A stretch of DNA of 35,287 bases from an uncultured Alphaproteobacteria bacterium (lineage in GTDB: Bacteria; Pseudomonadota; Alphaproteobacteria; Rs-D84), in contig CASCZI010000009.1 in assembly GCA_949156565.1 (NCBI GenBank), forward strand, positions 1-35,287. Direction: 5' to 3'. The notes beneath the pieces are model-generated. The model searched no databases. It was not told the origin of the DNA and saw only the letters and a program-made list of their open reading frames with translations. This document shows positions 1 to 8,041 of this stretch, piece by piece; position 1 is the stretch's first letter; each line of letters begins with the position of its first letter. The position numbers and the translations under genes were made by a program.

Positions 1-29
1 ACTATGCCTAATCCAAAGGGTGGTTTTCG
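1..29. repeat. Left-end dispersed palindromic repeat (partial)
   Basis: Bases 3-25 are the exact reverse complement of bases 35265-35287 at the other end of the window. Bases 13-29 also recur with one mismatch at 5631-5647. The same half-site forms a hairpin at the right end. This looks like a REP-like dispersed intergenic repeat at which the sequence was truncated. Seen directly; the dispersed nature in the genome is inferred. Confidence 0.7.
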
Positions 30-56
30 GATGGGAAAACAAGAAACGGGGGGATA

Positions 57-365
57 ATGTCACGTTTTATTTTTTGTTTGATCGCATTTTTGATGGTATG
101 TAATGCCCATGCGACCAAATACTGTGTTGTTAAATCGTGTAATGCCGGCTATTACGCCACATCATCCGTGACATCAGGTGCAACCGGCAAAGTGTATTAT
201 ACCAAGTGTGAACGTTGCCCGGGTTTGCCATCGGCATCGGGGGGCACCCAATATGGAACAACGTCTGTTGGGAAGAATATGCAATCGGCATGTACAATGC
301 CGGCGGGTGTTTCGTTAAAGGATAGTACGGGTACCTATACTTTTACCAGCAATTGTAAATATTAA
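57..365 (+). CDS. Small Cys-rich exported protein, unknown function
   Basis: A 102-residue protein with a clear N-terminal signal peptide: a hydrophobic run from about residue 4 to 17, then a likely cleavage after the NAHA stretch near residue 19. The mature part is rich in Gly, Ser, Thr and Tyr and has Cys residues in spaced CxxxC, CxxC and single positions, ending in an NCKY tail. The start has a purine-rich GGGGGG ribosome-binding site just upstream. The gene is followed after 14 bases by another Cys-rich gene, so the two are probably co-transcribed. No enzyme motif is visible. A disulphide-stabilised surface or periplasmic protein is likely by inference; the true function is unknown. Confidence 0.75.
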   Translation: MSRFIFCLIAFLMVCNAHATKYCVVKSCNAGYYATSSVTSGATGKVYYTKCERCPGLPSASGGTQYGTTSVGKNMQSACTMPAGVSLKDSTGTYTFTSNCKY

Positions 366-5654: not shown

Positions 5655-5674
5655 ATGGGGCGGGCGACCGGATT
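5655..5674. repeat. Duplicate of the tRNA-His 3' end (att-like direct repeat)
   Basis: Twenty bases identical to 5830-5849, the 3' end of the tRNA-His gene including its encoded CCA. The two copies are in direct orientation and bracket 155 bp. Such a duplication of a tRNA 3' terminus is the usual scar of site-specific integration into a tRNA gene. No integrase is present, so it would be a remnant; this origin is inferred. Confidence 0.65.
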
Positions 5675-5829
5675 GACATTCCTACCGCATTTACATGCGG
5701 CGGGGCCCTTTCCACTGCGTATATCTCGAACGGCGCTGAGGCTTGTTCTCGATAACTCCGTAGTCGAACCGGGCGGTTCTCATCACGGTTCCGCATACCC
5801 ATAAAAAAATGTCCCATGGACATATTTTT
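5675..5829. other. 155-bp structured insert between tRNA-His 3' end copies
   Basis: Non-coding, relatively GC-rich stretch held between the two copies of the tRNA-His 3' end. It contains two near-perfect inverted repeats, CCGCAT-4 bases-ATGCGG at 5685-5700 and GAACCG-GG-CGGTTC at 5766-5779, and it ends with the tRNA-His terminator. Open frames across it run into the tRNA gene and are not credible. It could be a relic of a small integrated element or a structured RNA transcribed downstream of tRNA-His. Confidence 0.5.
5802..5823 (-). terminator. Rho-independent terminator of tRNA-His
   Basis: On the minus strand, a 6-bp stem (ATGTCC/GGACAT, loop of three) just downstream of the tRNA CCA end is followed by a run of seven T. 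Confidence 0.75.
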
Positions 5830-5830
5830 A

Positions 5831-5908
5831 TGGGGCGGGCGACCGGATTCGAACCGGCGACAACCGGTACCACAAACCGGTGCTCTAACCAACTGAGCTA
5901 CGCCCGCC
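5831..5908 (-). tRNA. tRNA-His (anticodon GUG)
   Basis: Full cloverleaf on the minus strand, 78 nt including an encoded extra 5' G (G-1) and a genomic CCA. The acceptor stem GCGGGCG pairs perfectly with CGCCCGC. The anticodon loop is TTGTGGT with anticodon GTG, and the T-arm is GCCGG-TTCGAAT-CCGGT. G-1 faces a C discriminator (C73), the classical bacterial histidine identity element. Many alphaproteobacteria have lost G-1 and use A73, so this is informative for placement. Confidence 0.96.
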
Positions 5909-5922
5909 ATATGTTCGTCTAG

Positions 5923-5949
5923 TTTATAGGACAATTTGACATTTTGCAA
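5923..5949 (-). promoter_or_regulatory. Promoter of tRNA-His
   Basis: On the minus strand, TTGCAA at 5949-5944, a 15-base spacer and TATAAA at 5928-5923. The predicted start is about 8 bases before the mature tRNA 5' end. The same arrangement and spacing recur in front of the chimeric tRNA at 6854-6931, which supports the call. Confidence 0.6.
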
Positions 5950-5988
5950 GCATAAATTTCGTTCCCCATTGGTTGTTGGGGCAAAAAC

Positions 5989-6050: not shown

Positions 6051-6743
6051 ATGAACACAAAACATATGACATCTGCGGTTGTGTTAATGATATTTTTAAC
6101 ATTTGCCGCCATAACACACCAAAATAAACACAAACGTGCAACATCTTTCTATGCCAAAAATACAGAATGTTTAAGTGCACGTACCGTCCGTGTATTGACC
6201 ATGTTGGATTCATTACATCAATGTGATTTAAAGTTGGGGACACTGCAAACAAAAACATTTTTGGGCAATCAAAAATTAATAGACGATATTTTGATGACCC
6301 ATTTGACTGGGGCGCAACAAATGCGGGTACAATCGGTATTGCGTCAAATTTCCGCCCAGACCAAGATTGATCACAGCAATTATTTGTCCCAATGCAATTA
6401 TAGATCACCCACCTTGTTTATGAATTTATATCGGGGTGATGTTATGAAAAAATACATCAGTATAGCGGACGGGGATTCAGAAATTTTTGATATGATATCC
6501 ATGCAATATCAATCCCCCACGGTCCAGACAATACGTGCCGCCCATTTACGCGTTATGGGGGCGTTGGCGGGGGAATCGACCCGGTTATCTGCCGATCAAG
6601 GGTTATTGAAACGTGAACTGTACCAACGGGCGGGTATCGAACATGAATATGATGCCTTGGCACAAACCATGATGGAAAAATATATCGATGTGGAAAAACC
6701 GTTGACGATGATGCGATCAAAGAAACACGCCTTTATAAAATAA
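6051..6743 (+). CDS. Exported protein of unknown function
   Basis: A 230-residue protein with an N-terminal hydrophobic segment (about residues 8-21) that acts as a signal peptide or anchor. The mature part is helical, with Cys residues in an N-terminal pair and a QCNYRSP segment near 120. I recognise no family or catalytic motif. The gene stands alone with its own promoter and terminator, in the gap between tRNA-His and the chimeric tRNA. That position suggests it is accessory cargo of the tRNA hotspot. Confidence 0.7.
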   Translation: MNTKHMTSAVVLMIFLTFAAITHQNKHKRATSFYAKNTECLSARTVRVLTMLDSLHQCDLKLGTLQTKTFLGNQKLIDDILMTHLTGAQQMRVQSVLRQISAQTKIDHSNYLSQCNYRSPTLFMNLYRGDVMKKYISIADGDSEIFDMISMQYQSPTVQTIRAAHLRVMGALAGESTRLSADQGLLKRELYQRAGIEHEYDALAQTMMEKYIDVEKPLTMMRSKKHAFIK

Positions 6744-6778: not shown

Positions 6779-6819
6779 GCATTGGGTGAATGCCGCCCCA
6801 GGGTTCATTCCACAATAAA

Positions 6820-6844
6820 TAAAAAAACCGTCCATTTGGACGGT
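6820..6844 (-). terminator. Terminator of the chimeric tRNA (copy of the tRNA-Ala terminator)
   Basis: Minus-strand stem ACCGTCC/GGACGGT with a 4-base loop and a T-run of seven. It is identical in stem and loop to the terminator of tRNA-Ala at 7845-7868. Confidence 0.75.
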
Positions 6845-6879
6845 ATCTAATTCTGGTGGAGCTGATCGGACTCGAACCG
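6820..6879. repeat. Direct repeat: tRNA-Ala 3' end plus terminator, copy 1
   Basis: Sixty bases that match 7844-7903 with a single internal difference (T6848 versus C7872). The repeat covers the terminator, the encoded CCA and the tRNA-Ala 3' arm up to the T-loop. Past 6879 the sequence switches to tRNA-His. The two copies are 1,024 bp apart and bracket the metallopeptidase-like gene. Confidence 0.85.
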
Positions 6880-6931
6880 GCGACAACCGGTACCACAAAC
6901 CGGTGCTCTAACCAACTGAGCTACGCCCGCC
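6854..6931 (-). pseudogene. Chimeric tRNA: tRNA-His 5' part fused to tRNA-Ala 3' part
   Basis: On the minus strand the 5' part, about 58 nt from G-1 to the T-loop, is identical to tRNA-His at 5831-5908, anticodon GTG included. From the T-loop onward it is identical to the 3' end of tRNA-Ala at 7878-7953, CCA included. The switch falls within an eight-base block shared by both tRNAs (6872-6879). The acceptor halves GCGGGCG and CAGCTCC cannot pair properly (three mismatches in seven), and the T-stem has a mismatch, so a functional tRNA is not expected. Both a His-type promoter and an Ala-type terminator are kept, so it may still be transcribed. Confidence 0.88.
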
Positions 6932-6945
6932 ATACATTGCCCCAG

Positions 6946-6972
6946 TGTATATGATGTTTCCCCAATTTGTAA
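6946..6972 (-). promoter_or_regulatory. Promoter of the chimeric tRNA
   Basis: Minus-strand TTACAA, 15-base spacer and TATACA, at exactly the same distance from the tRNA 5' end as the tRNA-His promoter. The sequences further upstream are also related, which indicates that the whole 5' region was duplicated from tRNA-His. Confidence 0.5.
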
Positions 6973-7026: not shown

Positions 7027-7758
7027 ATGAAGATTGAATATGTGCCACTTAATGATGAACCGGACACCAACCCAGACCGGGATTATATCGTCGGGAAATA
7101 TTCGACATTTGACCCGGATCTAAGCCGCCAGGCCGCCGTGGCCAATCAGACCGAAAATCGTTCGGACAAAGTGGCTGCCCTGAATGCCGCCAATAAACGG
7201 GTGAATGCGGCCAAGGCAATGGCCCTGGGGAGGTATATTTTTGAAAGGTTTGAACAGGCACTGGCCCAGGTGTCTGAACTGGGGCGCATGTATGAAAACT
7301 TTGACCAATTAAGTTGGGATGAAAAGGTTGATTTTGCCCAATATTTAATCAACGAGGTCATCAACCGTATCGATTTGGTTGAAAAAAACGAATTGCCCGA
7401 AATCCGTGTGCGTTCCGGGCGGGATGCTAAAATTGCCGGCTTTCGGTTGGCACTGGGCAAGTTCCCGGAAATCATGTTGAATCCCGACATGCACAAGCCA
7501 GAGGGACGTTCTGATTCAAAATTGTCGCCCCGGTCTGATTTTATGGCGACGATAATTCATGAGTTTCAGCATGCCATTGATTTCATGGTGCCGCGGATGT
7601 CGGCTCTGGGGGCCCAGGTGGTGAATATAGCCTGGAAACAATACCAGGGTGTGGTAAAAAACGCCGCAACCGGCGAAGCGGACATCGCCTTGTACGAATT
7701 AAATCCATTGGAAATTATGGCCTATGGGTGGTTTGATAAATTTGGCGGGAAACAATAA
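7027..7758 (+). CDS. Metallopeptidase-like (zincin) protein, HEFQH motif
   Basis: A 243-residue protein without a signal peptide. A zinc-protease motif HEFQHAID lies at about 174-181 and is followed by ELNPLEIMAY near 227-236, whose Glu is well placed as third ligand. The N-terminal half is helical and charged. This resembles small cytosolic or delivered metallopeptidases seen in accessory and phage loci; the substrate is unknown. Base use differs from the neighbours, with CTG for Leu, AGG for Arg and many GCC codons, which hints at transfer. The start is set at ATG 7027 because upstream in-frame codons lie inside the promoter. It is framed by the chimeric tRNA and tRNA-Ala. Confidence 0.75.
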   Translation: MKIEYVPLNDEPDTNPDRDYIVGKYSTFDPDLSRQAAVANQTENRSDKVAALNAANKRVNAAKAMALGRYIFERFEQALAQVSELGRMYENFDQLSWDEKVDFAQYLINEVINRIDLVEKNELPEIRVRSGRDAKIAGFRLALGKFPEIMLNPDMHKPEGRSDSKLSPRSDFMATIIHEFQHAIDFMVPRMSALGAQVVNIAWKQYQGVVKNAATGEADIALYELNPLEIMAYGWFDKFGGKQ

Positions 7759-7843: not shown

Positions 7844-7903
7844 ATAAAAAACCGTCCATTTGGACGGTATCCAATTCTGGTGGAGCTGATCGGACTCGAA
7901 CCG
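7844..7903. repeat. Direct repeat: tRNA-Ala 3' end plus terminator, copy 2
   Basis: Partner of 6820-6879; this is the original context, since here the tRNA-Ala is complete. Confidence 0.85.
7845..7868 (-). terminator. Rho-independent terminator of tRNA-Ala
   Basis: Minus-strand stem ACCGTCC/GGACGGT, loop of four, then a T-run, ten bases past the tRNA CCA end. Confidence 0.8.
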
Positions 7904-7953
7904 ACGACCCCTTGCATGCCATGCAAGTGCTCTACCAACTGAGCTACAACCCC
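7878..7953 (-). tRNA. tRNA-Ala (anticodon GGC)
   Basis: A 76-nt cloverleaf on the minus strand with encoded CCA. The acceptor GGGGTTG pairs with CAGCTCC and contains the G3:U70 wobble that defines alanine identity. The anticodon loop ATGGCAT carries GGC, and the T-loop is TTCGAGT. It reads away from frr, which starts 88 bases to the right on the plus strand. Confidence 0.96.
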
Positions 7954-8041
7954 ATTACAGAATCCTATTTTATATTTCTTCTTGCCAAATGTCAAATCAA
8001 TTTGCTAATCTTTTTATAAGTTATTTTTTTAGGAGATATTT

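Follow-up and report, generated by a model that had tools for sequence, protein, structure and literature searches.

The minus strand at positions 6854-6931 carries a tRNA-like sequence that begins as one tRNA and ends as another, which raises the question of whether it is a dead recombinant or a tRNA-like RNA with another role, the two options left standing by the initial annotation of this DNA. The window analyzed here, a stretch of 35,287 nucleotides, comprises all of contig 9; the draft genome totals 1.07 Mb in 10 contigs.

Make-up and fold of the chimeric tRNA locus

Three minus-strand loci of the window were aligned with each other, and the relevant features are as follows.

6854-6931, minus strand: chimeric tRNA, a probable pseudogene, in which tRNA-His 1-57 (plus an encoded G-1) is joined to A58-A76 of tRNA-Ala(GGC) (alignment, Rfam RF00005, ARAGORN)
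6854-6880, minus strand: Ala-derived end of the chimera, shared CGGTTCGA block included (sequence comparison, block read from the sequence)
5831-5907, minus strand: intact tRNA-His(GTG), parent of the 5' part (ARAGORN and Rfam)
7878-7953, minus strand: intact tRNA-Ala(GGC), parent of the 3' part (ARAGORN and Rfam)

The alignment showed that the chimera is tRNA-His from its first base to the T-arm block CGGTTCGA, and that the block and all that follows it up to the CCA are tRNA-Ala(GGC), with exact matches of the first 30 nt to His and of the last 24 nt to Ala. The switch point is confined to the 8 bp of CGGTTCGA that the T arms of His and Ala have in common; thus, the initial reading of a His front and an Ala tail, switching within an eight-base T-arm block, was borne out. 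The His/Ala mosaic is far above chance, and the intact parents lie about 1 kb from the chimera, one on each side. The Rfam tRNA score of the chimera is 44 bits as compared to 68.2 for tRNA-His and 65.1 for tRNA-Ala, which passes the RF00005 cut-off of 29 yet falls 21-24 bits under the parents, and the chimera was left uncalled in an ARAGORN tRNA scan.

The acceptor stem had been described as unable to form, and the folding results agreed with this. The His 5' strand GCGGGCG stands opposite the Ala 3' strand CAGCTCC, and the two pair solely at positions 1, 3 (G:U), 4 and 7, i.e., at four of seven positions with G3:U70 counted. This number equals the median of random 5'/3' mixes made from this genome's 45 genuine tRNAs, all of which have 6 or 7 acceptor pairs themselves. 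When forced into a cloverleaf the chimera reaches -14.9 kcal/mol versus -32.9 kcal/mol for tRNA-His; its own optimal fold is another structure, and the acceptor-pair probabilities are near 0. With an acceptor stem that is predicted to be unable to form, normal processing or charging of the product should fail. No compensating change that restores acceptor pairing was found on either side of the junction, as expected if the hybrid is dead.

G3:U70 and A73 are the marks by which tRNA-Ala is known to alanyl-tRNA synthetase. The chimera combines both with the GUG (His) anticodon, and a folded fraction of it might accept alanine and then misread codons for His, a very unlikely outcome given that the acceptor stem is lost. 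On these tRNA-Ala marks, see also PMC6451123.

Flanking signals and conservation of the junction

The signals on either side of the chimeric body are the following.

6946-6972, minus strand: promoter-like hexamers TTACAA-15-TATACA, 5' of the chimera (read from the sequence; similarity scores)
6817-6844, minus strand: intrinsic terminator of the chimera, copied from behind tRNA-Ala (terminator scan; 52-nt alignment to the Ala 3' flank)
7851-7868, minus strand: tRNA-Ala terminator stem, source of the chimera terminator (terminator scan)

The terminator scan showed the Ala-type terminator ACCGTCC-AAAT-GGACGGT behind tRNA-Ala and the chimera alike, and the copy of the Ala 3' flank could be traced about 52 nt beyond the chimera CCA; scan and flank alignment together confirmed the earlier claim that an Ala-type terminator had been kept. 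The terminator region of the chimera shows a few changes beside an adjoining 57-nt body that is uneroded, which argues that the event was recent or that the body was corrected by conversion. On the upstream side, a His-type promoter with the same 15-base spacer had been proposed. The spacer was found by eye in both hexamer pairs (TTGCAA-15-TATAAA and TTACAA-15-TATACA), but the assignment to a His-specific type did not stand, since the local alignment score of the chimera promoter was 18 against His and also 18 against tRNA-Val(TAC) of the same genome. Over 55 ungapped nt the identity to the His promoter was 65% and the next best 58%, and the elements CTT-ACA...CATAT...TGGGGCA are common to the chimera and tRNA-Val(TAC) promoters. 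The putative promoter is thus about equally similar to those of His and Val(TAC). The initial annotation had also moved from diverged promoters to recent gene conversion or selection on the tRNA body; that step is insecure, presuming as it does a diverged His promoter where Val(TAC) reaches an equal score, and we reject such divergence as proof of body selection.

A search of related genomes for the junction, proposed earlier, was carried out with a pattern running from the anticodon loop of His into the tail of Ala. The results showed a single occurrence among 156 genomes of the genus, in this genome itself, and none in the 155 other congeners. Among 84,980 species genomes the pattern gave a single match, in Methylobacterium, with no tRNA around it, which we take as chance, and IMG/VR viral contigs gave none. 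A conserved chimera was therefore rejected, and on these comparisons there is no sign of selection on the chimera beyond this species. These results bear on the proposal that the chimera is expressed and acts as a tRNA-like regulatory RNA. The promoter-like site, the good terminator and the uneroded sequence would suit such a role, but the locus is missing from all other congeners, its fold is lost, and promoter and terminator may arrive with their parts without any need for selection; we consider the role highly improbable. Of the two options first offered, the dead recombinant is hence the better supported, with a unique junction, no compensation and intact parents, whereas the other role has no evolutionary support.

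Locus layout and origin of the hybrid

In congeners, tRNA-Ala(GGC) lies directly upstream of tRNA-His in 25 of the 32 genomes with a tRNA-His locus examined, at a spacer of 6-274 nt, and the pair is mostly found beside frr-uppS, as it is in the window. Here alone the Ala-His distance is 1,970 nt, with the chimera and two plus-strand accessory genes in between.

6051-6743, plus strand: gene A, orphan protein of 230 aa with no family, between the chimera and tRNA-His
7027-7758, plus strand: gene B, accessory protein of 243 aa with an HEFQH motif, between tRNA-Ala and the chimera

The chimera is most likely a tRNA pseudogene that arose by recombination of tRNA-His with the neighboring tRNA-Ala inside CGGTTCGA. 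Given that Ala usually stands just upstream of His in the genus, the T arms of one His and one Ala copy would have been exchanged, the partner Ala being located on the sister chromosome or in a tandem duplicate. Such an exchange would place a His-front/Ala-tail chimera between Ala and His and leave a second Ala terminator behind it, and accessory genes A and B would now fill both spacers. The chimera would be tolerated as neutral debris because both parents are intact. This reading draws on the letter-identity to the parents, the duplicated Ala terminator, the intact parents and the Ala-His adjacency in relatives, and the locus has the properties of a recombination pseudogene, i.e., parts identical to two intact parents, a switch in common sequence and a pairing that is unrestored. 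In addition, tandem partial copies of the tRNA-Ala tail, defined as at least two tails within about 120 nt, occur in at least 12 of 151 congeners, the ones inspected being 5'-degenerate tRNA-Ala, which indicates that partial copies arise often at tRNA-Ala. We infer the event itself (unequal exchange or gene conversion), the inactivity of the chimeric gene and the time at which genes A and B arrived.

Several observations stand against parts of this account. The Rfam score of the chimera, still over the family cut-off, speaks against a dead gene. An unequal exchange predicts copied spacers, yet the genes within them are unrelated, and the two upstream flanks agree at only about 65% of positions, scarcely more than is seen with the promoter of another tRNA. 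Both spacers, Ala-chimera and chimera-His, are 946 nt long, but they align at their ends only, while their interiors and the A and B proteins are unrelated; whole-spacer tandem duplication was rejected on these grounds. An unequal His x Ala exchange would give spacers of equal length, but since the interiors are unrelated, either one or both were refilled at a later time or the equality is due to chance; a coincidence is probable from the sequences compared.

A different history would begin with a former, functional second tRNA-His in which a recent conversion from tRNA-Ala replaced the tail and the terminator, leaving a gene that is likewise dead. It would account for an identical body beside a dissimilar promoter region, both His copies having been under selection until recently while their promoters drifted, as well as for the nearly identical Ala tail plus terminator. 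However, two His genes at this site were seen in no congener examined, a single Ala-His pair being the norm of the genus, and we regard this history as unlikely.

Misassembly of the chimera also seems unlikely from the sequence around it, and we give hardly any weight to an assembly artefact that fused two tRNA loci. In favor of an artefact are the draft state of the genome (10 contigs) and, in the relative G033 (locus L038), tRNA-tail repeats that fall at contig ends; against this, the 8-nt common block at the switch is shorter than the usual assembly words, and the chimera is flanked by unique sequence (genes A and B) unlike the flanks of both parents.

Gene A had no relatives among the 58 other congeners searched. 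Gene B appears metallopeptidase-like by eye from its HEFQH motif; its relatives are few and weak, and two of these are found close to the tRNA-Ala/His pair of congeners G042 and G036, which suggests an insertion hotspot. The gene B family (HEFQH; loci L060-L070) is patchy. Comparison of both genes with Pfam, NCBIfam and PHROG gave no convincing match, on which account a phage or mobile origin was rejected, and no relative of gene B was found among solved structures. Separately, positions 5934-5957 and 7974-7997 form a 24-nt inverted pair, 88% complementary, through which a stretch of the tRNA-Ala promoter region recurs in opposite orientation upstream of gene A.

Tail copies behind tRNAs and known systems

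A further feature of the window, located immediately behind tRNA-His, belongs to a group of units found throughout the genus.

5655-5830, minus strand: tRNA-tail unit behind tRNA-His, consisting of terminator, antisense segment, structured core (model match 5670-5781) and tail copy

In this unit the last 19 nt of tRNA-His are repeated exactly. The units of the genus are about 140-180 nt long and comprise a terminator, a segment antisense to the tail of the host tRNA, a structured core and the exact last ~19 nt of the host tRNA. The core has a conserved GGC-GA-GAAC...GUUC-GA-GCC hairpin, and 8 of its 17 predicted pairs are maintained by changes in both strands. With a covariance model of the core, matches were obtained in 32 of 35 congeners and in four genomes of another family in the order. 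Of 29 unit loci checked, 24 stand behind a tRNA (23 of those at 44-73 nt), and in 19 the tail copy matches the host tRNA at a fixed offset; the hosts include His, Leu, Glu, Arg, Gly, Lys, Met, Pro and Gln. The pairing of the antisense segment with the tail of its own host, taken as the mean over 26 elements, beat all 20,000 reassignments, a comparison that includes related loci and does not amount to a strict probability. Tail units were also seen at L091, L106, L107, L118, L119, L122 and L127-L156.

Other tail copies were noted in the genus. Loci L026, L027, L037, L038, L055 and L056 have 5'-degenerate tRNA-Ala copies with perfect tails between tRNA-Ala and tRNA-His, and a similar core, ACTTGATGGCATGCAACACGCA, recurs between species in such copies. 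At L053 (G002), tRNA-Ala(TGC) is followed by two 103-nt units, both of which contain a terminator copy and 24 nt of copied tail. Behind tRNA-His at L018 (G015) there is a 383-nt tail unit with a small ORF that resembles a GIY-YIG nuclease by eye; the ORF lies between the 3' end of tRNA-His and a perfect 19-nt repeat of that end, so that the cargo is bounded by tRNA tails.

Possibly the tail copying that gave rise to the units also produced the chimera as a by-product, a T-loop-specific step having joined the Ala tail (A58-A76) to tRNA-His and not to a unit core. The Ala piece that is certain begins at A58-A59, like the tail copies behind other tRNAs, which is suggestive only; tail units occur genus-wide, and the L018 ORF between two His tails indicates that cargo between tails is possible. 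On the other hand, CGGTTCGA permits any crossover over 8 nt, no recombinase was linked to the tail units, and the chimera is without a unit core and without an antisense segment. The core covariance model (R1) does not match the chimera, which has an Ala tail copy but falls outside the tail units. This origin is accordingly doubtful, and that the chimera represents the first seen mis-join of a dedicated T-loop-specific tail-copying or recombination process placing RtT-like units behind tRNAs of the genus is improbable. Unequal exchange, a conversion that hit an earlier second His gene, and a tail-copy mis-join are all compatible with the junction.

With recombination of the neighboring His and Ala genes as the preferred reading, the locus can be set beside known systems. 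Rickettsia peacockii, also a small-genome alphaproteobacterium, has a tRNA gene termed chimeric (PMC2791219), but that gene marks the junction of a tra-cluster region, whereas here both parents are next door. No integrase or conjugation genes were found beside the His/Ala chimera. Tycheposons and other tRNA-integrating elements use tRNA tails as repeat boundaries and place accessory genes beside tRNAs in small genomes. The window likewise has tRNA tails, accessory genes beside tRNAs and a small genome; it differs in that its cargo consists of single genes and that no element boundaries were delimited, and no recombinase was found among the window genes scanned. Open-access papers yielded almost nothing on partial tRNA arrays or RtT outside enterobacteria.

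A further likeness is with E. coli tyrT/tyrV (RtT, RF00391; rttR), where 178-nt repeats end in an exact 19-nt tRNA-Tyr tail, as the genus units end in theirs, and the layout is that of the window unit behind tRNA-His. There are differences: the chimera has a tRNA-His body and no RtT-like core, and RF00391, which gives four matches in E. coli, matched neither the window unit at 5655-5830 (L096) nor five sister units. Taken alone, the chimera is a clear snapshot of neighboring tRNA genes recombining into a dead hybrid. The genus tail units are probably of more interest, and the chimera is more valuable as a pointer to tail copies of the E. coli tyrT type, or RtT-like units, behind many tRNAs in a small-genome genus, which offer a wide range of cases in which to study the nature and the spread of such units.
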